A DNA stretch of 64,000 nt from Zychaea mexicana. Lineage: Eukaryota > Mucoromycota > Mucoromycetes > Mucorales > Lichtheimiaceae. The stretch covers positions 434,001 through 498,000 of the forward strand of contig NW_026516678.1 of NCBI RefSeq assembly GCF_025766255.1, given 5' to 3'. Below the pieces are notes generated by a model. That model worked only from the letters and a program-made list of their open reading frames with translations. It had not been told where the DNA came from and made no database searches. Positions 38,741 to 64,000 of this stretch are shown here, piece after piece. The number at the start of each line of letters is the position of its first letter. Positions within the stretch are counted from its first letter, which is position 1. The translations under genes and the position numbers were made by a program.

Positions 38741-41700
38741 CGTTGCTGGTTTGGTGGATGCCTCCTCGCTTGCCCTATCAGCTTGCTCGTTCAGATCAAT
38801 AACGGCTGCCTGCTTGTTTTCGATGGCATCGTTCAAGTTGTTGGCATCGCACTGTCCTTCATTCGTGGAACCATTGGCAAGTCGTTGAGCATCACCCTCG
38901 ACGGGAGTGGCTGCATTAATTATGCCACCTGCTACTACTGCATCCTTCACACCGCGAGAAGTTTCTTCAGGCGATTTTGATTTGGATACATCTTCGAGAG
39001 TAGTTGAGGACTTTTCTGCTGCGCCAGAGGATGTCTGTTTGTCGTCATCATCACCCTCGTCTGTGCGGTTGTCTTTGGCTGATTCTTTTGCATCATCGCT
39101 ATTGCCCCAGCCGCCAAATGCCTTGGCAGCCAATGCGCCCAGGCCACCAAGAGCGCCACCTGCGGCAAGTGCTCCGGCTCCAGCAGCGGATGATGACGAT
39201 GGGGATTCAAACTCTGTTTGAACGGCAACATCTACACCTTCGTCCAAGTCGTTTTCGTGTTGCACAAACATATCCTTGGTAACAGGCGGCTCGGACTGCA
39301 CTGAGATTTCCTTGGCAACGGGCACGTCTGACTGCACCGAGACATCATTTGTTTCCTTGACAAGCTCAGGTTCAGACTGTACAGAGACATCGTTTGTGTC
39401 CTTGACAGGCTCAGGTTCAGACTGGACCGACATGTCGCTCGTGTCCTTGACAGGCTCAGGTTCAGACTGGACCGACATGTCGCTCGTGTCCTTGACAGGC
39501 TCAGGTTCAGACTGCACCGAAACGTCGCTCGTACCTTTGACAGGCTCAGGTTCAGACTGCACGGAAACGTCGTTTGTTTCCTTGACAGGTTCGGGTTCAG
39601 ATTGGCAGAACGCATCGGATATGGATGCGGTTTCACTTTGCACGCCTGCATTGACTGCATCTGCGACATCCGATTGTGTGAATTGGTCGATGCCACCGGC
39701 AAACTCGTGCTGTACGCCTTGGTCATGCGTTGCAGCTGGCTCATACTGTGCACTTGCGTCTACAGCAGCAGCAGCAGCAGGTTCTGACTGGATACCGTGC
39801 TCGATATATTCGGGTTGCACACATTGCGTCTCCGCATGAACGATAGCGGGGCCAACACACTGCACTTCTTGGTCATGAACAGTGACAGGAGCAATGTCTG
39901 TGGCGGGCATACTGAACTCTTGGAAGTCTGCTGGGTCTGTCTGGATAGCAATCTCGTGGAAGACGGCGGCAGGAGTGTCAGCATCTGCGACGGCAGCAAT
40001 ACCAGCAATGCCAGCAGCAGCGACAGCAGCAGCGGCAGTGGTATTAGCGGAAGTGTCTTCTGTTTGCACGCCTGCATCGGAGCCAGTAGCACGAGGTTCA
40101 GTGTCTGCGGTGTCGGGACCTGCAAATGCAGCGCTCAATTCATCGCCCAGAGTTCGAGGTGCATTATCTGCCACCGGAGTAGGAGGTTCAACGGAGACAG
40201 TTGGAGGGCGCTTTTGCTGCTGCTGCTTCTGTTGGCTTTTTGAAAGTTCGGAATCAAGTGACGTGAACCCTGCAGTGGTTCCAGAGGGTTCTTCATCGGC
40301 GTCTTCGTAATATTCGTCGTCGTCGTCGTCCTCTTCTGATTCGCCTTGGGATGAATAGTACAACTGCTGTGAGTCTTTTCGTTTGCGGCGTTCCTCGACG
40401 TCTGATGAATCGTCCAAAGACTCGCCGCCCTTGGGTATTCGAGCAACGCGAGTTTTTGATACAGGTACGCGCCGCTTGCCCTTGCGAAGTCGACGTGTGC
40501 TGGTGGATCCAGTCGAGTCGGGTGCATTGTTTGAGCCAGTCCCTGATTTGGGATAGCCGGCGTCGACCCACAGTCGCGGATCGTTCTGCAGCTGTTCGAT
40601 CGTCTCTTGGGACTCTGTCAAGAGTTTCTTGAGCTCGAACTTTTCTGTTTTTTCCCTATGCAGGTTTGATCTCAGGTTGTTCACCATACGATGCGCATGA
40701 GCAAGCGACGTTTTCAGCGTTTCGACCTCGAGCTGTTGATTCCGCGTGGGCGTCTGCTTTGGAGAGGGAGGCGGTGAGCTTCCCGGAGTAGTTCCCTCCT
40801 TTGCAGGTGTCGTTGCGCTTTCTGCCTTCTCCTCGCCTTTCTCTGCTGCTGCAGCTGGCCGTAGGTCTGAATGACTCCGTTTCGCAATTTTGCTCTGTGC
40901 CTTGGCAATAGCCAGCTCAGAGGATAGCGCCTCAATCTGCTTGATGTGATCTGTCTTTTCCCGCTGAAGCCCAGCCGAGTGTCGTCGGATGGTGCCCATG
41001 TCTTGTTCGTGCCGCTGCTTCATGGCCTCGAGTGTAGCGGATAACTTTTCTTCGCGGTCGCGCATGTGCTCGATTTCGGTTGTCAGCTCATCCATGTGCT
41101 CTTGCATCCGCTTCTGCTCAGCGTTAGCTTTGTTGAGATTCTGCTGCAGCTCAGTGACACTGATGGTCAACTCCTGTTTGGCAAGCTCAAGGTTCCACGT
41201 CTCCTCCTTGAGTTTTTCTATTTTTTACGTAATGGAATAAGTAACCCCCCTCCCCATAAAAGCAAGCAGGCATGGAGAAAAGGTTGGGTTTTCCCTTTTT
41301 TTTTGTGTGTGTCCATGGACAATAGTGAATTGAGAGATGGAAACAATGTCTTACCTTCGTTTTCTTCCTTTTGGCGAAGTTGTTTTGCCATGGATTCAGC
41401 AGCTCGCTCCAAGTCAGCCTTTTGTGCCTGGAGAGCTTTGAGCTGATCGTCTTTTTCCTGGAGAAGAGCCTGCATCTTCCGCACTTCGATCAGCAGGCCC
41501 TGGCCGATTTCTGTTGCAAACTCGATATCGGTGTTGCGTCGATCGGCATTAGGCACTTTGGATCGTCGTTTCGTGGGCGTTGAGCCGGTGGGCGGGGGTG
41601 GTAGTGGCAGGAGCGAAGTCGAGTCATGGCCTTGCGGGGGAGGAAGCATCGTCGAAGTCGAGGGACTCGGTAATGGATCGAGACCTGTCCGTTGACCTAG

Positions 41701-52966: not shown

Positions 52967-54540
52967 CAGTCATTTCAAAAAGTAATATCGCTGATTTTGA
53001 GTTTGACGTCGTGCAAAAAATCTTCGTGTGCAACAATGAAGTCGCTTGATCCAGCAATGAAGTCGTGACGAAGGTCGTTTATTTTTACTTGTCGCTTAGT
53101 AATTACCCAATAAAATTTCTTGGCTGTTATTTGGGTATAAATTGAGTGACACCTCCATCCCTCTTATCGTTCTCTTTTTTTCTTTTACAATTTATTTTAC
53201 AGACATTTCGAAATGAGTATACAATTTTTTTACGAAGATGGGCAAGGGCATGTTGTTGATGAGCATGGAGTTGAGCCCATGGATCTTGTTGTTGACGAGG
53301 AGTTGTTCGCTATCGAGACGCTTAGTTCTCGAACACAATTCCTTAAGAATAAACCTCCAGAAAGACCTAATCCTGCAATGCATCCAACTGCAGTTGAAAG
53401 GAATAGTGAAGATGTTGATATGGAATTATGCAGTAAGCGGCGCTATACATTTTATTCTGATGAGGAGAAAACTAGATTCTTTCATCTATTTTTCAGTAAA
53501 AGCTTGAGTGCTTCTGCTGCTGCGAGACAATTAGGTATTCATGTTCGTACAGCCCAAAGATGGGTCAAACATTATTACGAAGACCCTGAAAGCTTTTTTG
53601 AGAAGAAGAAAAAAACAGGTCGGCATCGTATTCTTGGCGAGGAGCATGAGCAATGTCTTTTAAACTATATCGATGAGAATCCTTCTGCCGTCTTAACTGA
53701 AGTAATGGGACATTTACTACAGAACTTTGCAGATCTCACCGTTTCACGTAGTACTGTTTATAACTTCATGACAACTCAGTGTAATTTATCCATTAAACAG
53801 GCACAATTCCAGCCTGTGGAAAGAAACAGCGAGGAAAAGATTCAGTAGAGGTACGATTGGGTCCAAAAGTGGCAGCAAACTGACTTGGACTTTACAACAA
53901 ACTGTGTCTTTCTTGATGAATCAGCCTTTCATATCAATTTGAAACGAGGTATGGCTTGGTCAAGGAAGGGAACCCCTGCAATAGTTACAGTGCCTACGAC
54001 TTAAGCGAATTCAACATCGATTTTGGGGGCAATACCTGCCACCGGCTTAATTAATGTTAGCTTGAGAGTTCCAAAGCGTATCAAAAAGAGGAAGCTTGGT
54101 CATGAAACTAACGGTTATAGTATAGGAACAGTGACAGGGCATTATCTGAGCTTTTTAAAGGCAACTCTTGATGAAATGGACAAGTATCCCGAAATGAAGG
54201 GACATTATCTTGTCATGGATAATGCTCCTATTCATAGTTCAACCGACATTGGAAAGTATATTCACTCCCGAGGATACCGTTATGTATATCTTCCTCCGTA
54301 TTCTCCTGAGCTGAATCCAATTGAGCAGTTCTGGTCTGTTGTCAAGAGTAAAGTTAAGAGAAATAAGTTTCTGGAAAAAGAATCCTTGATGACCAGAATC
54401 AGCGAGGCATTGATAGTCTTTATTTAAGCGATTTCAAAGGATTTGTTTCTCATTCTGCTAAATGTTTTAGTAAATGTCTCAACAAAGAAAGGTTATGAAG
54501 CTTTGACAAAACAGAAGTGTAAAAAAAAAGATCTTGCTCC
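52967..54540 (+). mobile_element. Truncated Tc1/mariner-type transposon
   Basis: The left end starts after TA with CAGTCATTTCAAAAAGTAAT, a Tc1-style terminus. It is followed by a transposase pseudogene in the same orientation. No inverted copy of the terminus is found after the transposase; the sequence runs directly into the satellite at 54541, so the right end is lost or displaced. Confidence 0.7.
53213..54490 (+). pseudogene. Tc1/mariner DD34E transposase, inactivated
   Basis: The reading frame starts at 53213 with an acidic N-terminus, then a helix-turn-helix region (AAARQLGIHVRTAQRWVKHY) for terminus binding. The catalytic DDE domain has its first Asp in FLDESAFHIN, the second in VMDNAPIHSS and the Glu in NPIEQFWSVVK; 34 residues separate the last two, the DD34E spacing. 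Two in-frame stops (TAG at 53846-53848 and TAA near 54002) and a frameshift near 54405 break the gene; beyond the shift, recognisable C-terminal sequence resumes in another frame. The copy is dead but not ancient, since long conserved segments survive. Confidence 0.85.
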
Positions 54541-55404
54541 CCACCTTACTCCACCTTACTCCACCTTACTCCACCTAACTCCACCTTACTCCACCTTACT
54601 CCAAGCTGTAGCCAATCAGCGATCCGCTTTCCTCACCTTACTCCACCTTACTCCACCTTACTCCAAGCTGCAGCCAATCAGCGATCCGCTTTCCTCACCT
54701 TACTCCACCTTACTCCACCTTACTCCAAGCTGTAGCCAATCAGCGATCCGCTTTCCTCACCTTACTCCACCTTACTCCACCTTACTCCACCTTACTCCAA
54801 GCTGTAGCCAATCAGCGATCCGCTTTCCTCACCTTACTCCACCTTACTCCACCTTACTCCACCTTACTCCAAGCTGTAGCCAATCAGCGATCCGCTTTCC
54901 TCACCTTACTCCACCTTACTCCACCTTACTCCACCTAACTCCACCTTACTCCACCTTACTCCAAGCTGTAGCCAATCAGCGATCCGCTTTCCTCACCTTA
55001 CTCCACCTTACTCCACCTTACTCCAAGCTGCAGCCAATCAGCGATCCGCTTTCCTCACCTTACTCCACCTTACTCCACCTTACTCCAAGCTGCAGCCAAT
55101 CAGCGATCCGCTTGCCTCACCTTACTCCACCTTACTCCACCTTACTCCACCTTACTCCAAGCTGTAGCCAATCAGCGATCCGCTTTCCTCACCTTACTCC
55201 ACCTTACTCCACCTTACTCCACCTTACTCCAAGCTGTAGCTAATTAGCGATCCGCTTTCCTCACCTTACTCCACCTTACTCCAAGCTGTAGCCAATCAGC
55301 GATCCGCTTTCCTCACCTTACTCCACCTTACTCCACCTTACTCCAAGCTGTAGCCAATTAGCGATCCGCTTTCCTCACCTTACTCCACCTTACTCCACCT
55401 TACT
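54541..55404. repeat. Composite satellite: 10-bp units plus CCAAT-bearing 32-bp spacer
   Basis: Runs of the 10-mer ACCTTACTCC (two to six copies) alternate with a 32-bp spacer that begins AAGCTGTAGCCAATCAGCGA. Twelve spacers are present; ten keep a perfect GCCAATCAG. Successive units measure 62, 62, 72, 72 and 92 bp, and this series adds up to a 360-bp higher-order unit: 54541-54900 and 54901-55260 match base for base except for about five differences, including a shared variant CACCTAACT. The last copies (55201 on) carry CTAATTAG or CCAATTAG variants. A long reading frame across it (54443-55243) is a by-product of the repeat. Confidence 0.95.
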
Positions 55405-55439
55405 TTTTCATTTTCTTCCCACACTTTTTTTTTTGTTCA

Positions 55440-55716
55440 GTTTATCGGCATGACAATTTCAATGTTACTGCAGAAAGTGTGTCCGTATTGTGACGAGAAT
55501 GGCATTTTTGTGTGAATGGAAAATGTCAGACGACATATTCATCGAAAGCACGAGATTTTACTTTCCAGTCGTAGTAAATCTTATCAGTCTCCAAAAGGGT
55601 CAAAGCCATTCACTTCACTTGTTCATGAAGCTCAGGATGGCGGATCGCTTGATTTCACGAAAACCGAGTTAAGAAATTTATTTGTCATTAATACCATCTG
55701 TAAACAAGTATTGTAG
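55440..55716 (+). pseudogene. C2H2 zinc-finger 5' fragment of the nuclease-like gene family
   Basis: A plus-strand frame reads VCPYC...HIHRKH, a C2H2 finger interrupted by a TGA near 55513, followed by ILLSSRSKSYQSPKGSKPF. The stretch 55540-55620 is nearly identical to the reverse complement of 61630-61712, the 5' part of the broken gene on the minus strand. This is therefore a second, inverted fragment of the same gene family; its remaining exons are absent. Confidence 0.6.
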
Positions 55717-56900
55717 AATGTGGTAAATGAGATTAACGTAACATATGGCACATATGCTATAAAATTTCTCACGTTTTTCATGAACGGTTGCAACGGTTGG
55801 GAGTCCACCAACTGTCATACATCATTTTTCTTTGGAATACGCAATTTCTTTATTTTTTTGTCATGAAAAATGTATGAACCAAGCAGTACAAACTAATGAT
55901 AAATGGTGCATTTGCTTGGTGTAAAATCGGTAGAAGGCATGGGAGGCAAGGAATTTAGTGTTTTGACGTTGATGCAATGGCACCATGAGACATACGTCGT
56001 TTTCGCAGCAACGTTTTGATATTGGATTGGACGTAATCGAATGGTAAGGTGGGGTATTTCAAAGGAACTTGACGGGTCCTTTCCAATGACATATGAAGAG
56101 TCGCAAGAGAATAAAGATCATCGAGGTATCCCAAAATGGACATGATGCTTGGCTTGTTGGATGGCAATATAATCGTAACTAATTCGACAAAGACCAACAT
56201 GTTTGGTTTCCTTGTCATGATATAAAATGTGGTTGACAAACCTAAAAAACATGTCAGCAGTTATAAGCTTTCTCGCCAAACATAATGAAAATTTGGGTAT
56301 CTTACCGATGGTTTGAAAACAAATCACGGCGTTCAAATAGCTGGTATCCATCTCTGTCTTTGCAAACAATGCCAGTCGATAAAAATCGTTCATACATGAC
56401 ATGTCGTTTGCAGTGTCAAGTTTAATTTCGCCAAAGCAAAACGTTGACACATATTGATAGTGTTCGAATTTCTGTACGAAGTAATCCGGTCGCTTATCAG
56501 CGCACTCAAATCGTGGTAGGATGTTGGCACTAATAAAAAAAGTTAAAAGTGGTGTTCACATATAGCTTGATTCTTTCTTACCATTGGGCAAAATGTGAAG
56601 GGTTATGAGCAAATAAATGTTGAATTACAGGGTGGATGTAACCTGCTGTAAGATGGTTTTCTGATGACAAGCAAGGGAGGTCTAAATCCTTTAGAGTAGG
56701 AATCCTTCAATAAACGTTTGATACACAATGAATAAGAACAACAATATAATCTCGAAATGATCACTTACAGTCCTTCAATGGTGTCCTGCTATTAGTTGTC
56801 TAACTAATTATAATCTACTAGCTGTAATATAGATAATAAAATTGCTATGACCGGTATAACCATCAGTGGCCGAATTAATTATTGATTTACAATAAAAATA

Positions 56901-56920
56901 ATAAAAATTGAATTTTTTTA
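56901..56920 (+). repeat. Left subterminal inverted repeat of the composite element
   Basis: The 20-mer ATAAAAATTGAATTTTTTTA lies 115 bp inside the left end. Its reverse complement (with one extra T) lies at about 60677-60697, roughly 98 bp inside the right end, and the same word occurs at about 61846 in copy 2. A binding site for the transposase or Rep is possible. Confidence 0.7.
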
Positions 56921-56987
56921 TTTATATTGGTAGCCTCCCATGAGAAAAAAAAGAGCGATTGTTTAAAGTACATAACAACAAATAAAA

Positions 56988-58478
56988 ATGAACACAACAC
57001 AACACACTGAACAACTCGATATTGAAATTAAAAATTTAATTAATAATAAATGGACTTTTCTTGATAAATCTTAGCCTGAAATGCAACATAGATTTAATCA
57101 TAGAACAGCTATTAAAGATATGAAGAATAATACAATAAATGATATAAAGGATGTATTACTTAATAGATTTGGATTTATACCTGTATTTTATTTTCTTACA
57201 GTTTTATATGGAAATATTGAATATCTAGGGCCATACCGCGAGATTGAAAAAGGACTTGCATTATTATATCATATGGTATCAGGTGTATCAGGAAAGGATA
57301 TGCATACTGTTATGCCATATGCAACATTTTATGATTTATATAAGCGGTTCTGGATTACTAACTATAATGAATTGAATAAAAAGGTAAAACAAGATCTAGA
57401 TATTATGTTCTCATCACCATGTATTCACATTCTATTAGCAATAATAAACAATCCAGAGGGTTTTAAGAATGTTACACTATTTATTGATGGACATGATAGT
57501 AAAATAAAGTATTATAAACCAAATGAGTCACATTCACAATTATATTCATATAAATTAAAAGGGCCGGCTGTACGTACACAAGTTATACAGGATATGAATG
57601 AAATAATTACACATGTTTCAGTATCTGAAAAATGTGCTATCAGAAATGATGGTACTATGTTTATTAATATGAAACTATATAAAAAAATAAGTGAGGCAGA
57701 TTGTTTAGGAATGGATGGTGGATATAACTTATTTATACAAAAGTTTAAAGATAATGCGACAGATGCTAGATATAGTTTTTATGATCGTAATTTTTTACAT
57801 CCCATAAGAAAAGAACCAGGACAAAAGTTAACAATCAATGAGACATACTTTAATAACAAGTTTGGATCATTTCGTTCAGCAATAGAAGCACAGTTCTCTA
57901 TGTTAGGCTCTAAATTTGAACGATTTAATAATAATCGTGCAGCATTGCAAATAACCAATATAAGATATTATAATATTCAGTTTCGTGTTGCTTGTATTCT
58001 TACTAATATATGGCGATTTGTAAATAAGTATAATATAGAGGTACAACCACATCATAAATTATGGTATGGAAAAGATTTTGAATTCCCAAGTGAGAAAAGC
58101 AAACTTGACTTAGTATTTTCAAATGAGCAAAAAGTAAATACTGAATATAACGAAATGGTTGACATGCAGCAGAAATTTCTACAGCTTAACATTAATCATA
58201 ATCAATCAATAGATATGGCTATAGATAGTGAGGACGAAACTGAAAATAATACATCTAAACGCAAGAGAAAAAATCAAAGAGAACAGAGAAATATAGAACA
58301 TAGTAATTCATATGAAATTGAGAAGATTGTAGGACATGTGTATACTGATAATAAGTACATATTTGAGGTTAAGTGGGTTGGATATAGTGTAAAGGATAAT
58401 AGTTGGTTAACAGTTGATAAGTTTAATTCCGGGGAAATGCTACATGAATATATGGCCACACATGGTATTCAGCTCTAA
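56988..58478 (+). CDS. DDE transposase with C-terminal chromodomain
   Basis: The open frame from ATG 57081 encodes 465 aa; an in-frame ATG at 56988 lies upstream but is separated by one TAG (57072-57074), so either the start is 57081 or the first 28 codons were lost to a nonsense change. Residues 130-280 look like a DDE_Tnp_4/PIF-Harbinger nuclease: FIDGHDSKI (D136), LGMDGGYNLF (D212) and FRSAIEAQFSMLGSKF (E269) are the candidate triad. A basic linker (KRKRKNQ near 395) leads to a chromodomain at about 412-462 (YEIEKIVGHVY, FEVKWVGY, SWLTVDKF). Chromodomains on integrases direct insertion to methylated-histone chromatin in chromoviruses; a similar targeting role is inferred. No introns. Convergent with the Rep tail ORF, sharing 4 bp at the 3' ends. 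Confidence 0.8.
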
Positions 58479-59059
58479 ATTAATTTCTTACTTATTTGCT
58501 TATTAAAAAATTTCATATTGAAACTGACTGCATCAACTTTTCGTTTACTTGCCCAATTATATTTATGTTTTATGCATTCATTAGTTATACTTGTACTTAT
58601 ATTAGTATCTGTTGATTTATTTTTGACGTCAGTTTCTTTTGTTATATCTATATCATCTATTATAGCCTGTTTTATATCCTTATGCTTTTCAAAATATTCT
58701 TTTGGCTGTATTTCTTCTACTATTTGCTTGTTTCTCCGTTTATTTTTAATGTGTCTTTTTTTCTTTTTACGTTTTGGTATATTATTTGGTATGTTGCAGT
58801 CACTGCTTTTCTCTGATTCAGATGTACTTACATCTATGTATTTATGTTTCTCTATATCTTCTGGTGGGTTTTCCCAATCAGTAGTATCATTTACAACATC
58901 ATCACATTTTATATCATTAAACACATCTTCCCAATGCCTACAATCTACTGATGATGGTACCTTTACAGTTGACCATCCTCTATTATTTTGTTGAGGCGGA
59001 TTATGTTGTTTATTGTTCTGTGTACTATTACTATTATGTTTTTCTTCTTGTTCCTTCAT
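58475..59059 (-). CDS. Basic, disordered tail ORF next to Rep
   Basis: A 194-codon frame on the minus strand overlaps the last 26 bases of the Rep ORF in another frame. It is Asn/Gln-rich, contains GWSTVKVPS and CRHWEDVFNDIK, acidic Ser-rich segments and a strongly basic patch (KRKKKKRHIKNKRRNK) that could bind nucleic acid or enter the nucleus. In copy 2 the start of this segment is in the same frame as Rep: copy 1 has one extra base in the run near 59065. So this is probably the C-terminal tail of Rep, separated in copy 1 by a 1-nt shift, unless ribosomal frameshifting is used. No homologue is recognised. Confidence 0.55.
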   Translation of the reverse strand: MKEQEEKHNSNSTQNNKQHNPPQQNNRGWSTVKVPSSVDCRHWEDVFNDIKCDDVVNDTTDWENPPEDIEKHKYIDVSTSESEKSSDCNIPNNIPKRKKKKRHIKNKRRNKQIVEEIQPKEYFEKHKDIKQAIIDDIDITKETDVKNKSTDTNISTSITNECIKHKYNWASKRKVDAVSFNMKFFNKQISKKLI

Positions 59060-60587
59060 ATATTCTTTCTGTGTCAGCTAATTCTTGTAGTTCCTCTACT
59101 GTTTTATCCATCGGTGTATATTTTTTAATATCATCCTGACCACTATTATGTGCATAACGGATAAATGTATGCTGATCTTGGTATTCGTTTTCGAATTCAC
59201 CTTTGTATAAGTCCTCATACATATCCATGTTTTCATAATATATGAATTTATTTTCATAATCCTTCACCTTCATTGTGTATGGATTCCATATTATATGACC
59301 TTCACGGTTCTTATCAACATAGATAATATATAAACGATTGAGCGTTGGCTCTAACTCATATACTGATTTGTTTTTGTATAACATATGCGGCATATAGTTA
59401 CTATTCAGTATTATTGGCATATTTTTCTTTTTAGTTATTGACTTTGTGAATTTGCCATTAAGTTTTAACCGTGTTCCTTCTAACATTTGGTTTAAAAATG
59501 TTAATTTGAAATCAGAACCTGTTTCTTCATTATACATAAAATCATGATCATCATCCTTATAATCTGACCAATCATTTTCTTTATTCATTAGATATGCTCG
59601 ATGGCCACCTTGTTCTAATACATCAATGTTATATGTCTTACCTACATTTGATGGACCTACAATCCAGTATTGTGGTATCTTATTTTTACCACCAAACATT
59701 GTTTCAATCCCAAACATAGACCACATATGTAATTTATTTCCAGGGTTATTTTCCATATCGGCATCATGAAAGTAAGAATTTAAATTTGATTTTACAGTAT
59801 CATATTTCCATAGCAATTCTGGATATATTTCGGTAGCCTTCCGCATATTAAGCTGCTTCGTAATTAATTGATATCCAAGTAACTGTTGGTGCATTTTTCT
59901 GGTCTTAACTTCATAATTTGGATCCATATTATAACAAATATAATCTTTTCCTTTCATACAGTAGCTAATGGACTTTTGTGGATTACCACCTGGTTTAATA
60001 TTTAGAGTAACACCATTGATAGTAAAGAATTTACGTGCTGTTTTTGTGTCGAACTGCTCATTCATTTGTATCCATATATGAACATGTTTCTCACCAGTTT
60101 CTGGTGCAATTTCATCACATGCAATTGCCTTTTCAATTCGATAACCAATACGTTCATGTTTTATAAACCATTCCATGATTTGTTCTTTTGTTAAATGGAA
60201 GTCCTTACAAATATATATGAACAGCCCTTTAGTGTTTTGGAATCGGAATTCTTTGCCGCCCTGCGAGGAATCTGCACCAGAGGTGTTACCCTCTAACATT
60301 GCATCGGAAAATTGAGGATTTGAGGATTTGAGGAATTTTGCAAAAGCCCTAATCCGTCCCATTATTGCAGTATGGTTCTCGTCCCTTACTTCCTTTGTTA
60401 TGTTAGCCTTTTTGAGGTCCTTTTCGAGTTCGACCCTTAGTTGGTCAGCAATTGTTTTTTCACTAACATCTTGATGATGTTCAGTAAGATGCTTTGCTCT
60501 TTCTATTAAGAGCGTCAATGTTATTCCTAAAATAGGAATAAATTCAGCCATAATGGCAATAAATGTGAGGAGGTTCATTTGGTCCAT
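59034..60587 (-). CDS. rep: CRESS-type Rep: HUH endonuclease plus SF3 helicase
   Basis: 517 codons in one open frame on the minus strand. Rep proteins nick an origin and unwind DNA for rolling-circle replication. Visible: a hydrophobic helix at about 5-28 (unusual for Rep) and a coiled region to 90; HUH domain with motif I-like GLFIYICKDF (121-130), motif II HVHIW (168-172) and motif III YCMK (209-212) holding the candidate catalytic Tyr; helicase with Walker A GPSNVGKT (311-318), an acidic Walker B-like segment near 347-355 and sensor-type ILNSN (393-397). The motif set matches CRESS-DNA virus and plasmid Reps and related fungal genomic copies. All core motifs look intact; the C-terminus ends early relative to copy 2 through a 1-nt difference. 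Which CRESS lineage it belongs to cannot be told by eye. Confidence 0.85.
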   Translation of the reverse strand: MDQMNLLTFIAIMAEFIPILGITLTLLIERAKHLTEHHQDVSEKTIADQLRVELEKDLKKANITKEVRDENHTAIMGRIRAFAKFLKSSNPQFSDAMLEGNTSGADSSQGGKEFRFQNTKGLFIYICKDFHLTKEQIMEWFIKHERIGYRIEKAIACDEIAPETGEKHVHIWIQMNEQFDTKTARKFFTINGVTLNIKPGGNPQKSISYCMKGKDYICYNMDPNYEVKTRKMHQQLLGYQLITKQLNMRKATEIYPELLWKYDTVKSNLNSYFHDADMENNPGNKLHMWSMFGIETMFGGKNKIPQYWIVGPSNVGKTYNIDVLEQGGHRAYLMNKENDWSDYKDDDHDFMYNEETGSDFKLTFLNQMLEGTRLKLNGKFTKSITKKKNMPIILNSNYMPHMLYKNKSVYELEPTLNRLYIIYVDKNREGHIIWNPYTMKVKDYENKFIYYENMDMYEDLYKGEFENEYQDQHTFIRYAHNSGQDDIKKYTPMDKTVEELQELADTERIYEGTRRKT

Positions 60588-60719
60588 GTGTGTTTTCGTT
60601 GGGGTAGTTTTGTTGGAGTGCTAAAAAAAATATAACAAATATATTTTGCTTTATATTCTGTGGTATTATTTTTATATTAAAAAAAATTCAATTTTTATTT
60701 TTTTCAAAAATTTAAATGT

Positions 60720-60743
60720 ATGCATGCCAAGACATTCATGCAT
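60720..60743. other. Stem-loop between Rep start and element right end
   Basis: ATGCATG (60720-60726) and CATGCAT (60737-60743) form a perfect 7-bp stem around a 10-nt loop, CCAAGACATT. It sits 133 bp upstream of the Rep start codon, where rolling-circle origins commonly lie. The loop does not match the usual CRESS nonanucleotide, so an origin role is only suggested by position. Confidence 0.4.
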
Positions 60744-61887
60744 GAATTATTTCAATAAAAATGAATTTGGCTATCCTGATATATCTTAGCTAATAAGTCA
60801 TCTAGGGTTACTAGATCATATTAAAATCATCATAACCATGGCTGGTCCCCAATAGCCAGCAATACGTTTCGTTCTGGTTCAGGTTTGGATTTTGCCATTG
60901 TAAGGAGGCCAATGCGAACGTCGAGTATATCTTTGATGCCATCACGATATTCCTACACCAAAAAAAAAGACAGAATCAATCGTCAAAAATCATAAAAAAA
61001 GGTCTTTTTCCATCATTTTCCAACTCTTGTGCAAGCCGTCTTACAGTCAGTATGGCCTTGATCGCCCTGTGGTCTCTGGGTTGCAAGGTACGTCGAAAAT
61101 TAAGCTCATCCAGCAAAGCCGTCCGTGTATTTTGTTGTATCTGTGGATCCATGATGTGTTCTGGAATATTGTTGTAAAAGTTACGTCGCTGGATGAAGAA
61201 GATCGATGACATCGCCCTATCGATGATGAAAAAAAAGCATGTTATCAAAGAGAAGAAAAAATAAACATTTGGTCATACAAAAGCTGGTGGAAGGATTGAT
61301 CGAGATTGTTATATTTATGGCTGTTTTTGATGACATCGTCGCGAAATTCGTTGAACTTTCTGGTCACATTCAGATCCCTAAGAGTCCATTCACTGTTTGT
61401 ATTATCTGCACCAGGAAAGCTATGCTGTGCGTCGCTACTAAAAGTACCAGTAGAAAACAACATAGAAAATTAGAAAAGAGTGTTATGAGACGATATAATC
61501 CATAGTGACCACTTACAAAACAAGATGTCGTTCGTTAACATGTTGTTCAAGCACTGGCTTCTCGTTAAACAAATCAATGCAGGATAGGCACATCAGTTTA
61601 ACTACTGGTACGTGTGGATACACTTGATGCAAAGCCAAAGTGAATGGCTTTGACCCTTTTGGAGACTAACAAGATTTACTACGACTGGAAAGTAAAATCT
61701 CGTGCTTTCGATGAATATGGGCGTCCTGCTATTAGTTATCTAACCACTTACAATCTATTGGCTGTAATATGGATTGTAAAATTACTATAGTTGAGATAAC
61801 CCTATATGGTCGAATTAATTAATTATTAATTTATAACAAAGGTAATAAAAATTGAATTTTTTTATTGTAATGGTAGCCTCATACGAG

Positions 61888-62096
61888 AAAAAATCAGAGA
61901 ACAGAGAAGTATTGCATATAGTAATTCATATGAAATTAAGAATATCATAGGACATATGTATACTAATAGTAGGTATATATTGAGGTTAAGTGGGCAGGTT
62001 AGATATAATGTAAAGAATAATAGCTAGTTAACAAGTGATAAATTTTATCATTGAAAATGTTACACGAATATATGGTCACACAGGTATTCCACTCTA
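61888..62096 (+). pseudogene. Chromodomain remnant of the transposase (copy 2)
   Basis: Nucleotide similarity to 58270-58478 of copy 1 is clear, but internal stops and small deletions break the frame (for example, the equivalents of the KWVGY and SWLTVDKF segments are shifted). It ends with the same terminal region followed by the convergent tail ORF. Confidence 0.75.
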
Positions 62097-62099
62097 AAT

Positions 62100-64000
62100 T
62101 AATTTATTACTTATTTTGCTCTTTAAAGAATCTCATATTGAAGCTAATTTTATTAACCTTTCTACTATATGCCCAATTATATTTATGCTTTGTATATTGT
62201 TTATTCATATCAATTTGTTCATTTTTGACTATGGTTTCATTTGGTATATCTTTATTATCGGATATAGTGTGTTTTATAGCCTTATGCTTTTCAAAATAAT
62301 CCTTTGGCTGTATATCTTTTACTATTTGCTTACCCTTTTGTTTATTTTTGTTGTGTCTTCTTTTCTTTTTACGTTTTGGTGTACTATTTAGTGTGCTACA
62401 TATACTGCTTTGTTCTGAATCAGATGTACTAACGTCTATATACTTATGTTTTTCTGTATCTTCAGGTGGGTCATTTCAGTTAATATTATCTGTTATAATC
62501 TCATCACATTTTATATCATTTATTATTTCTAACCATGGTTTACAATCTGATGGTAGTAATGCTTTTACAGTCGACCATCCTCTATTATTTTGTTGAGGCA
62601 GTTAATGTTGTTTATTGTTCTGTGTATTATTACTATTATGTTTTTCTTCTTGTTCCTTCATATGTTCTTCTGTATCAGCTAATTCTTGTAGTTCCTCTAC
62701 TGTTTTATCCATCGGTGTATATTTTTTAATATCATCCTGACCACTATTATGTGCATATCGGATAAATGTATGCTGATCTTGATATTCGTTTTCGAATTCA
62801 TCTTTGTATAAGTCCTCATACATATCCATGTTTTCATAATACAGTCAACCCCCGTTAATGTCAACCCCGATAACGTCAACCCCCCATAGCGTCAACTGAT
62901 TCGCTGGTACCCTTTCAAATTTAGTAGTTAAAGATTTTGCCTATTCTCTACCCCCGGTGGTGGTCAACCCTCGATATGGTCAACACTTTTGCTGGTACCC
63001 TGAGGGTTGACGTTAACGGGGGTCGACTGTACATGAAATTACTTTCATAATCCTTCACCTTCATTGTGTATGGATTCCATATTATATGACCTTTATGGTT
63101 CTTATCAACATAGATAATATATAAACGATTGAGTGTTGGCTCTAACTCATATACTGATTTATTTTTGTATAACATGTGCGGTATATAGTTACTATTCAGT
63201 ATTATTGGCATGTTTTTCTTTTTAGTTATTGACTTTGTGAATTTGCCATTAAGTTTTAACCGTGTTCCTTCTAACATTTGGTTTAAAAATGTTAATTTGA
63301 AATCAGAACCAGTTTCCTCATTATACATAAAATCATAATCATCATCTTTATAATCTGACCAATCATTGTCTTTACTCATTAGATATGCCCTGTGTCCACC
63401 TTGTTCTAACATATCAATGTTATATGTTTTTCCAACATTTGATGGACCAACAATCCAGTATTGTGGTATTTTGTTTTTACCGCTAAACATAGTTTCAATA
63501 CCAAACATAGACTACATATGCAACTCATTTCTAGGAGTATTTTCCATGTCAGCATCATGAAAATAGCTATTAAGATTAGATTTTACTGTATCATATTTCC
63601 ATAGTAATTCTGGATATATTTCTGTTGCCTTTCTTATAGTAAGCTGCTTGTTAATTAATTGATAGCCAAGTAATTGTTGATGCATTTTTCTAGTTTTAAT
63701 TTCGTAGTTTGGGTCCATATTATAAGCAATATAGTTATTTCCTTTAATGCAGTAACTGATAGATTTTTGTGGATTACCACCTGGTTTAATATTTGGAGTG
63801 ATACCATCAATAGTGAAGAACTTACGTGCAGTTTTAGTATCAAATCGTTCATTTAATTGTATCCATATATGCACATGTTTTTCGCCTGTTTCAGGTGCTA
63901 TTTCATCACATGCAATTGCTTTTTCAATTTTATAACCAATACGGTCATGTTTAGTAAACCATTCTAATATCTATTCTTTTGTTAAATAGAAATTTTTACA
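62100..64000 (-). pseudogene. rep: Rep gene with tail, decayed (copy 2, partial)
   Basis: Minus-strand frames 62602-62829, 62948-63508 and 63512-63874 match the Rep of copy 1 closely, including Walker A and sensor motifs. The gene is broken by a MITE (62842-63029), a TAG near 63510 and a TAG near 63972; the tail region (62100-62600) also has stops. At the Rep/tail junction (about 62665) the frame runs through without the extra base seen in copy 1. The N-terminal third lies beyond the window. Confidence 0.8.
62842..63029. mobile_element. pogo/Tigger-like MITE inserted in Rep copy 2
   Basis: 188 bp with TA on both sides (62840-62841, 63030-63031). Ends are inverted repeats: CAGTCAACCCCCGTTAATGT on the left against CAGTCGACCCCCGTTAACGT read from the right, about 90% identical over 28 bases. 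The CAGT start, AACCCC-GTTAA body and TA target are typical of pogo/Tigger-type elements. Comparison with copy 1 (59240 region) gives the empty site, confirming the boundaries. No coding capacity. Confidence 0.9.

Follow-up and report, generated by a model that had tools for sequence, protein, structure and literature searches.

Introduction

The closest described counterpart of the element reported here is a multi-copy, geminivirus-like transposon of the truffle Tuber melanosporum, an ascomycete with 42 Rep genes (Liu et al., 2011; PMC3198968). As the text of that paper describes it, the reconstructed truffle element has 37-bp inverted repeats, no obvious target duplications and three ORFs, one Rep-like and two for transposases, each of them interrupted or truncated. 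The element that we describe from Zychaea mexicana, found in a window of 64,000 nucleotides (NW_026516678.1, positions 434,001 to 498,000), is likewise a multi-copy fungal element that unites a geminivirus-like Rep and a transposase. The pairing is therefore not new in kind, and the original prediction, which knew of no named family that combines the two, has to be withdrawn on this point. What sets our element apart is a single chromodomain transposase, 3-bp target duplications, 7-bp imperfect end repeats (5/7), linker joints and dependent smaller forms; this is a distinction by description, as the text of PMC3198968 gives no transposase family or sequence. Within the open-licence literature, the pairing was found reported in PMC3198968 only, no report mentioned a chromodomain, duplications, linker joints or dependent forms for such an element, and the consulted parts of PMC6668415 and PMC10175614 name no such combination of Rep and transposase.

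Among DNA transposons, PIF/Harbinger elements share with our element the DDE_Tnp_4 catalytic domain and target duplications of 3 bp. They prefer TWA as target and carry a Myb/SANT-type second gene, whereas here there is no TWA preference, the end repeats are very short, a chromodomain is present and Rep takes the position of the Myb-type partner; no Myb/SANT-type second gene was matched by Pfam in the three scanned frames at E values up to 10. The affinity to PIF/Harbinger proposed at the outset thus extends to catalytic domain and duplication length, but not to target preference and second gene. Helitrons are also eukaryotic transposons with an HUH protein, which in their case is the sole transposase and inserts without target duplication; our element differs from them in its 3-bp duplications, its DDE transposase and its geminivirus-type Rep, and no Helitron model was among the Pfam matches of the scanned frames. 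CRESS-DNA viruses of the geminivirus branch likewise have a Rep in which the motifs of an HUH endonuclease and a helicase are found; here, in contrast, no capsid frame was seen, the element is integrated together with a DDE transposase, and a stem is found in only three of seven joints, so that no stem-loop origin is conserved among them. Teratorn, a piggyBac-herpesvirus fusion of about 180 kb, likewise joins a cut-and-paste transposon to viral replication functions, while the present unit has 4 kb and one Rep (PMC10175614, as far as its text was consulted).

Borders and target duplications

The ends of the element (Table 1) were fixed by comparing the window with the stretches around 20 places, including 20 better Rep matches. 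Most copies start with GG(C/T)GTCCT(A/G)CTATTAG and finish with GGTCCCC, which here fall at 56780 and 60850, and the outer seven bases of the right end are an imperfect inverted repeat of the left end with five of seven positions matching. The borders had initially been placed at 56786 and 60796, with GTC as the duplicated target, but both GTCs lie inside the element and the true duplication is AAT. Excision of the element together with one AAT, not GTC, leaves a minus-strand open stretch that runs into GTAAGT. The block is AT-rich, with a GC content of about 0.27-0.38 compared with about 0.37-0.50 in its surroundings.

Exact 3-bp duplications flank 10 of the 16 single copies that can be read at both ends (tandem copies and copies with a lost end being excluded), against 16/64 expected by chance; seven of eleven are in the main set, to which L035 (AAA), L037 (CAA) and L038 (TTA) are added. 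The remaining six, among them L036 and the second copy in the window, lack an exact duplication. The duplicated triplets vary (AAT, CTT, ATT, ATG, GAG, TAG, TGT, AAA, CAA and TTA). Searched across the genome with up to three mismatches, the left-end pattern was found at 98 places and the right-end pattern at 62, and the reversed controls gave none. The motif TGCTATTAG/TACTATTAG of the left end resembles, with one or two mismatches, what we take to be the CRESS nonanucleotide, NANTATTAC.

Within both ends and close to where the two genes start, TTGAATTTTT occurs at 56908-56917 and as its exact inverse complement at 60682-60691, and the 15-nt linker described below opens with TGAATTTTT; together these could form a candidate shared binding site.

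Table 1. Features of the element in the window, of its second copy, and of the head-to-tail joints elsewhere in the genome.
Feature	Location	Strand	Remarks
Whole element, class E (transposase and Rep)	56780..60850	.	4071 bp; ends common to other copies
Target duplication AAT, left copy	56777..56779	.	from comparison of copies
Target duplication AAT, right copy	60851..60853	.	from comparison of copies
Left end	56780..56802	+	contains TGCTATTAG at 56787-56795; TACTATTAG in many copies
Transposase frame, 467 aa	57075..58478	+	DDE_Tnp_4 at residues 138-311, Chromo at residues 413-446
Rep C-terminal tail frame	58475..59077	-	out of frame with the Rep body in the window copy
Rep frame, 528 aa	59034..60620	-	convergent with the transposase; motifs in alignment of 11
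Right end, ATCATAACCATGGCTGGTCCCC	60829..60850	+	from comparison of copies
Second copy, class B (Rep kept, transposase mostly deleted)	61720..64000	.	continues past the window
Paralogous empty site of the second copy	55001..55630	-	insertion point 55534; sequence reads through the site
Joint	C53		class C, then full class E
Joint	C303		class C, then Rep-bearing unit with most of the transposase replaced
Joint	C79		full class E, then class C
Joint	C51/C194		Rep-bearing unit, then class C
Joint	C115		Rep unit without transposase, then class T
Joint	C174		class B, then unit with transposase and partial Rep, cut by the contig end

Transposase and Rep

A DDE transposase with a chromodomain had been predicted and was confirmed, both DDE_Tnp_4 (42.9 bits, cut-off 24.8) and Chromo (29.3 bits) scoring above their Pfam cut-offs. 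In 20 aligned transposase sequences D138 and D141 are invariant and D214 and E271 nearly so. The chromodomain matches HP1 (5.4e-5) and presumably retains the aromatic cage residues known from HP1. In the window copy the long frame is preceded by an in-frame TAG at 57072-57074. The closest transposase is from Circinella minor (78%), and the pooled omega of 0.43 (170 pairs) is noisy because the pairs are mostly of low dS.

The convergent Rep was also recovered with the motifs claimed for it, which align in 11 Reps, although its Pfam matches all stay below cut-off (Gemini_AL1, E 0.0011; Viral_Rep, E 0.012; RNA_helicase, E 0.22). As we read them, its motifs are HVH at residues 179-181, a YCMK motif, GPSNVGKT at 322-329 (Walker A) and a sensor-type asparagine at 406. 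Most of the 11 aligned sequences keep Walker A together with the HUH and tyrosine motifs, the second histidine being lost in P0002. A profile of these 11 matched Rep structures (9pqf, 6.6e-8; 9pqq, 7.9e-8; 7vg8 and 1l2m, 1.1e-4 each), with one designed helical protein also passing at 3.6e-4. In the AlphaFold model, with an overall mean pLDDT of 56.8, ten-residue means reach 69-91 at residues 121-240, so that the predicted HUH domain is modelled with confidence and the rest of the protein with low confidence. Foldseek searches with this model ranked the Vientovirus and TYLCV Reps first in the PDB and placed CRESS-type Reps on top in a viral library. By profile and fold the protein is a geminivirus-like HUH Rep, and its putative helicase part is assigned from motifs and weak matches.

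In other copies the Rep open frame extends up to 772 aa, compared with 528 aa here. Pooled omega for Rep is 0.19 (214 pairs with dS above 0.03, from 22 sequences), which shows overall purifying selection; low-dS pairs with the window copy give 0.38-0.71, as expected of dying copies. Relatives of this Rep occur in Circinella minor, Rhizopus stolonifer and R. arrhizus; together with the closest transposase they point to a host that is probably mucoralean and close to Circinella. In viral contigs no relative was found: one pattern search was empty, and another gave 41 matching stretches, none encoding a relative. The element's frames of at least 120 aa are the transposase, the Rep body, its tail and one frame antisense to the tail, and no capsid frame was seen among them, capsid models having been applied to all but the antisense frame. 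The contigs of one Rep homologue (P0002) and one transposase homologue (P0031) have the same length, 4459, which could well be coincidence among 10 x 77 pairs and was disregarded.

Copies in the genome

The whole-assembly search for the 4-kb unit gave at least 85 Rep and at least 96 transposase matches, which merge to 68 and 86 places. Rep and transposase form 34 convergent pairs in the same order, mostly about 580 bp apart; for the other 34 Rep places no transposase in convergent orientation lies within 1.5 kb. For 44 left ends a right end lies within 7.5 kb, and 21 of these 44 end pairs measure 4001-4075 bp. With shared ends, 3-bp duplications and many copies, the predicted composite of transposase and Rep holds as one unit. 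Neither separate Rep and transposase units with termini of their own nor unshared junctions were found, and the smaller forms use the same ends. One candidate for a separate transposase unit without Rep, on C90, turned out to be the element's left half, ending where another DDE_4-type transposon begins.

Pairing with Rep depends on the relatedness of the transposase: it is seen at 33 of 57 transposase places with at least 70% identity and at one of 29 below 70%. The exception, C291, is an old relic (64% and 57% identity) with the same order and ends, and it is also the only one of the 29 to have a class E left end within 2 kb. As pairing is nearly confined to the places above this threshold, Rep belongs, within our search, to one transposase lineage, in which it was probably gained.

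The second copy in the window had been noticed for having the same order, which is correct, but most of its transposase is deleted. Its right end lies at C57:498643, and its flanks (ATG left, ATA right) form no exact duplication. At its paralogous empty site, 82 flanking bases are 97.6% identical to the flanks of the copy. A dense tandem array of units of about 62 nt (54476-55517) adjoins this site.

Smaller forms and sister families

Three smaller forms share the ends of class E. Class B keeps Rep and has lost most of the transposase (the second window copy, L013, the first unit of L014, and L037), and the first unit of L033 is a separate deletion of the same kind. Class T combines the transposase with another ORF (the second unit of L033, and L035), and class C, of about 1.17 kb, carries this alternative ORF alone (in L002, L015, L021, L027 and in L038, a monomer with TTA duplications). 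L036 is a class E copy with an internal deletion. Since class C and T copies bear duplications too, insertion does not require Rep in cis. The ORF of the satellite-like class C element (e.g., L015:687-1856) has about 290 aa and also stands behind the transposase in T forms. It shares a segment of 25-27 residues (63-64%) with Rep and, in T, also the last 30 residues (90%).

The transposase and Rep halves of copies differ in their depth of divergence, which is a sign of recombination. L013 and L014, which represent one insertion, are 96-99% alike, but only 86-93% in three 300-nt bins of Rep, indicating that Rep segments were exchanged. This exchange weakens class B as a proof of selection on Rep alone, and we did not retain it as such.

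Of four sister transposase loci that were read, two (L028 and L030) have a small Cys/His-rich ORF instead of Rep. It is lysine-rich, with the pattern GKR.G..C.RKI...YLC..H, and lies divergently at L028:4472-5032 and convergently at L030:3748-4164; perhaps it is the ancestral second gene. A frame of 390 aa at L031:4664-5833 adjoins a sister transposase and is tyrosine recombinase-like, presumably a Crypton-type recombinase.

Linker joints

At seven places in the genome units are joined head to tail, a right end being followed by a near-constant 15-nt linker and then a left end (Table 1). Searches with linker plus left end and with right end plus linker (up to three mismatches) returned the same seven places and nothing in the controls, and neither found the linker beside a lone right or a lone left end. 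The linkers deviate from TGAATTTTTAAAATT by at most one base. C51 and C194 agree at 98% over the joint and its surroundings and thus count as one locus, so that the seven joints represent six loci. With a stricter right-end pattern, four of the seven right-to-left gaps below 2 kb are exactly 15, the others being 869, 1547 and 1548. TGA stands on either side of the C115 dimer, and the C303 dimer has no clean duplication.

Two insertions occur in two states each, once as a monomer with its duplication and once as the leading unit of a tandem (L018/L019 and L013/L014). L018 and L019 agree at 99.3% over 6.7 kb and diverge at the right end; beyond it one continues with the duplication and host DNA and the other with the linker, followed by a truncated class C unit, and L019 does not contain the host flank of L018. 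L013 and L014, 96% alike over 3.3 kb, diverge likewise at the right end. L018 (G000:C79:250500-259500) and L019 (235200-244200) lie on the same contig in opposite orientation, as nearly identical copies of a stretch of about 6.7 kb.

In DNA folding, the nonanucleotide-like motif stands in a stem at only three of the seven joints, and at weak energy, so that we do not put forward a conserved origin hairpin; a joint stretch of 171 nt gave a folding z of -1.97.

Possible mode of multiplication

Cut-and-paste transposons gain copies only indirectly, and a replication initiator of their own would give them direct multiplication. We incline, with some reserve, to the explanation that a single transposon family of about 4.05 kb, with a DDE/chromodomain transposase and Rep, multiplies through rolling-circle replication, driven by Rep, of a circular form whose insertion the transposase would carry out. 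Since in the joints the linker directly connects a right end with a left end, their template would be circular or tandem; the linker is missing from single insertions, which so cannot restore it, while a circle copied by Rep would keep it. Under this explanation the linker would be retained in the circle or tandem alone, Rep would nick in or near the left end and copy the circle, and the transposase would cut at both ends, leave the linker behind and insert the unit with a 3-bp duplication. Mixed dimers may arise when two circles, or a circle and a copy already in the genome, recombine. The chromodomain is predicted to guide the unit toward methylated histone H3, and the smaller forms would be satellites dependent on the full element. 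The excised, amplifying and reinserting circle envisaged in the original prediction agrees with the seven joints, which speak for it indirectly and are known here from the assembly alone. Several observations count against this explanation: all seven joints pair unlike units, where simple rolling-circle concatemers should also yield like-with-like dimers; the low omega of Rep may have been spread among copies by conversion; a stem forms in only three joints; six of the 16 single copies and the C303 dimer lack an exact duplication; class C and T copies have inserted without a Rep of their own; and the Rep model has low confidence outside the HUH domain.

That a transposon and an endogenous viral Rep came to adjoin by nested insertion is extremely improbable; degraded and truncated copies are common, as such an accident would allow, but it is already contradicted by the shared ends, as well as by the 34 same-order pairs mostly about 580 bp apart, their duplications, and the identical order and ends of the old relic. 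A more serious competitor, though in our judgement still rather unlikely, is an ordinary cut-and-paste transposon in which Rep, standing where the second ORF usually is, serves as an accessory protein and drives no rolling-circle replication, and in which older tandem arrays gave rise to the joints by recombining. The hairpin is not conserved across joints, the assembly alone shows no circle, two of the four sister loci (L028 and L030) carry the Cys/His-rich ORF in place of Rep, and the alternative ORF shares segments with Rep as if those parts alone served movement. This reading leaves unexplained why the linker is constant in length and sequence and never stands beside a lone end, and the motifs kept in most aligned Reps and the low omega of Rep argue against it as well.

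The joints might also be the work of the transposase alone, which would join the ends with a spacer or insert at a preferred site beside another copy. Some bacterial insertion sequences form circles with abutted ends, which provides a precedent, and the C115 dimer with its 3-bp duplication looks as if it had moved whole. A spacer derived from flanks would vary, however, and the linker is near-constant at six loci with different flanks and was found beside no lone right or left end; we consider this origin improbable.

Returning to the Rep-copied circle, a further-reaching version of it is possible, and we put it forward tentatively. The element may be a nuclear, capsid-free, geminivirus-like circle that lives part-time as an episome, has its linker in the circular or tandem form only, employs a DDE transposase that reads chromatin as integrase and sustains satellites of its own (with Rep only, with transposase and ORF, or with the ORF only); transposon, plasmid and satellite virus would then form one system. 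In this multi-copy family, whose open frames are long, single-stranded DNA viruses, plasmids and DNA transposons meet, and the joints offer a direct way to test the circle model.

Other features of the window

Two frames at 53150-54427 resemble a broken transposase, one with an HTH part and one with a part containing LPPYSPELNPIEQFW; we assume them to be of Tc1/mariner type. At 39282-39641 six direct repeats are spaced by 45 nt, a multiple of three, and perhaps lie within a coding region.
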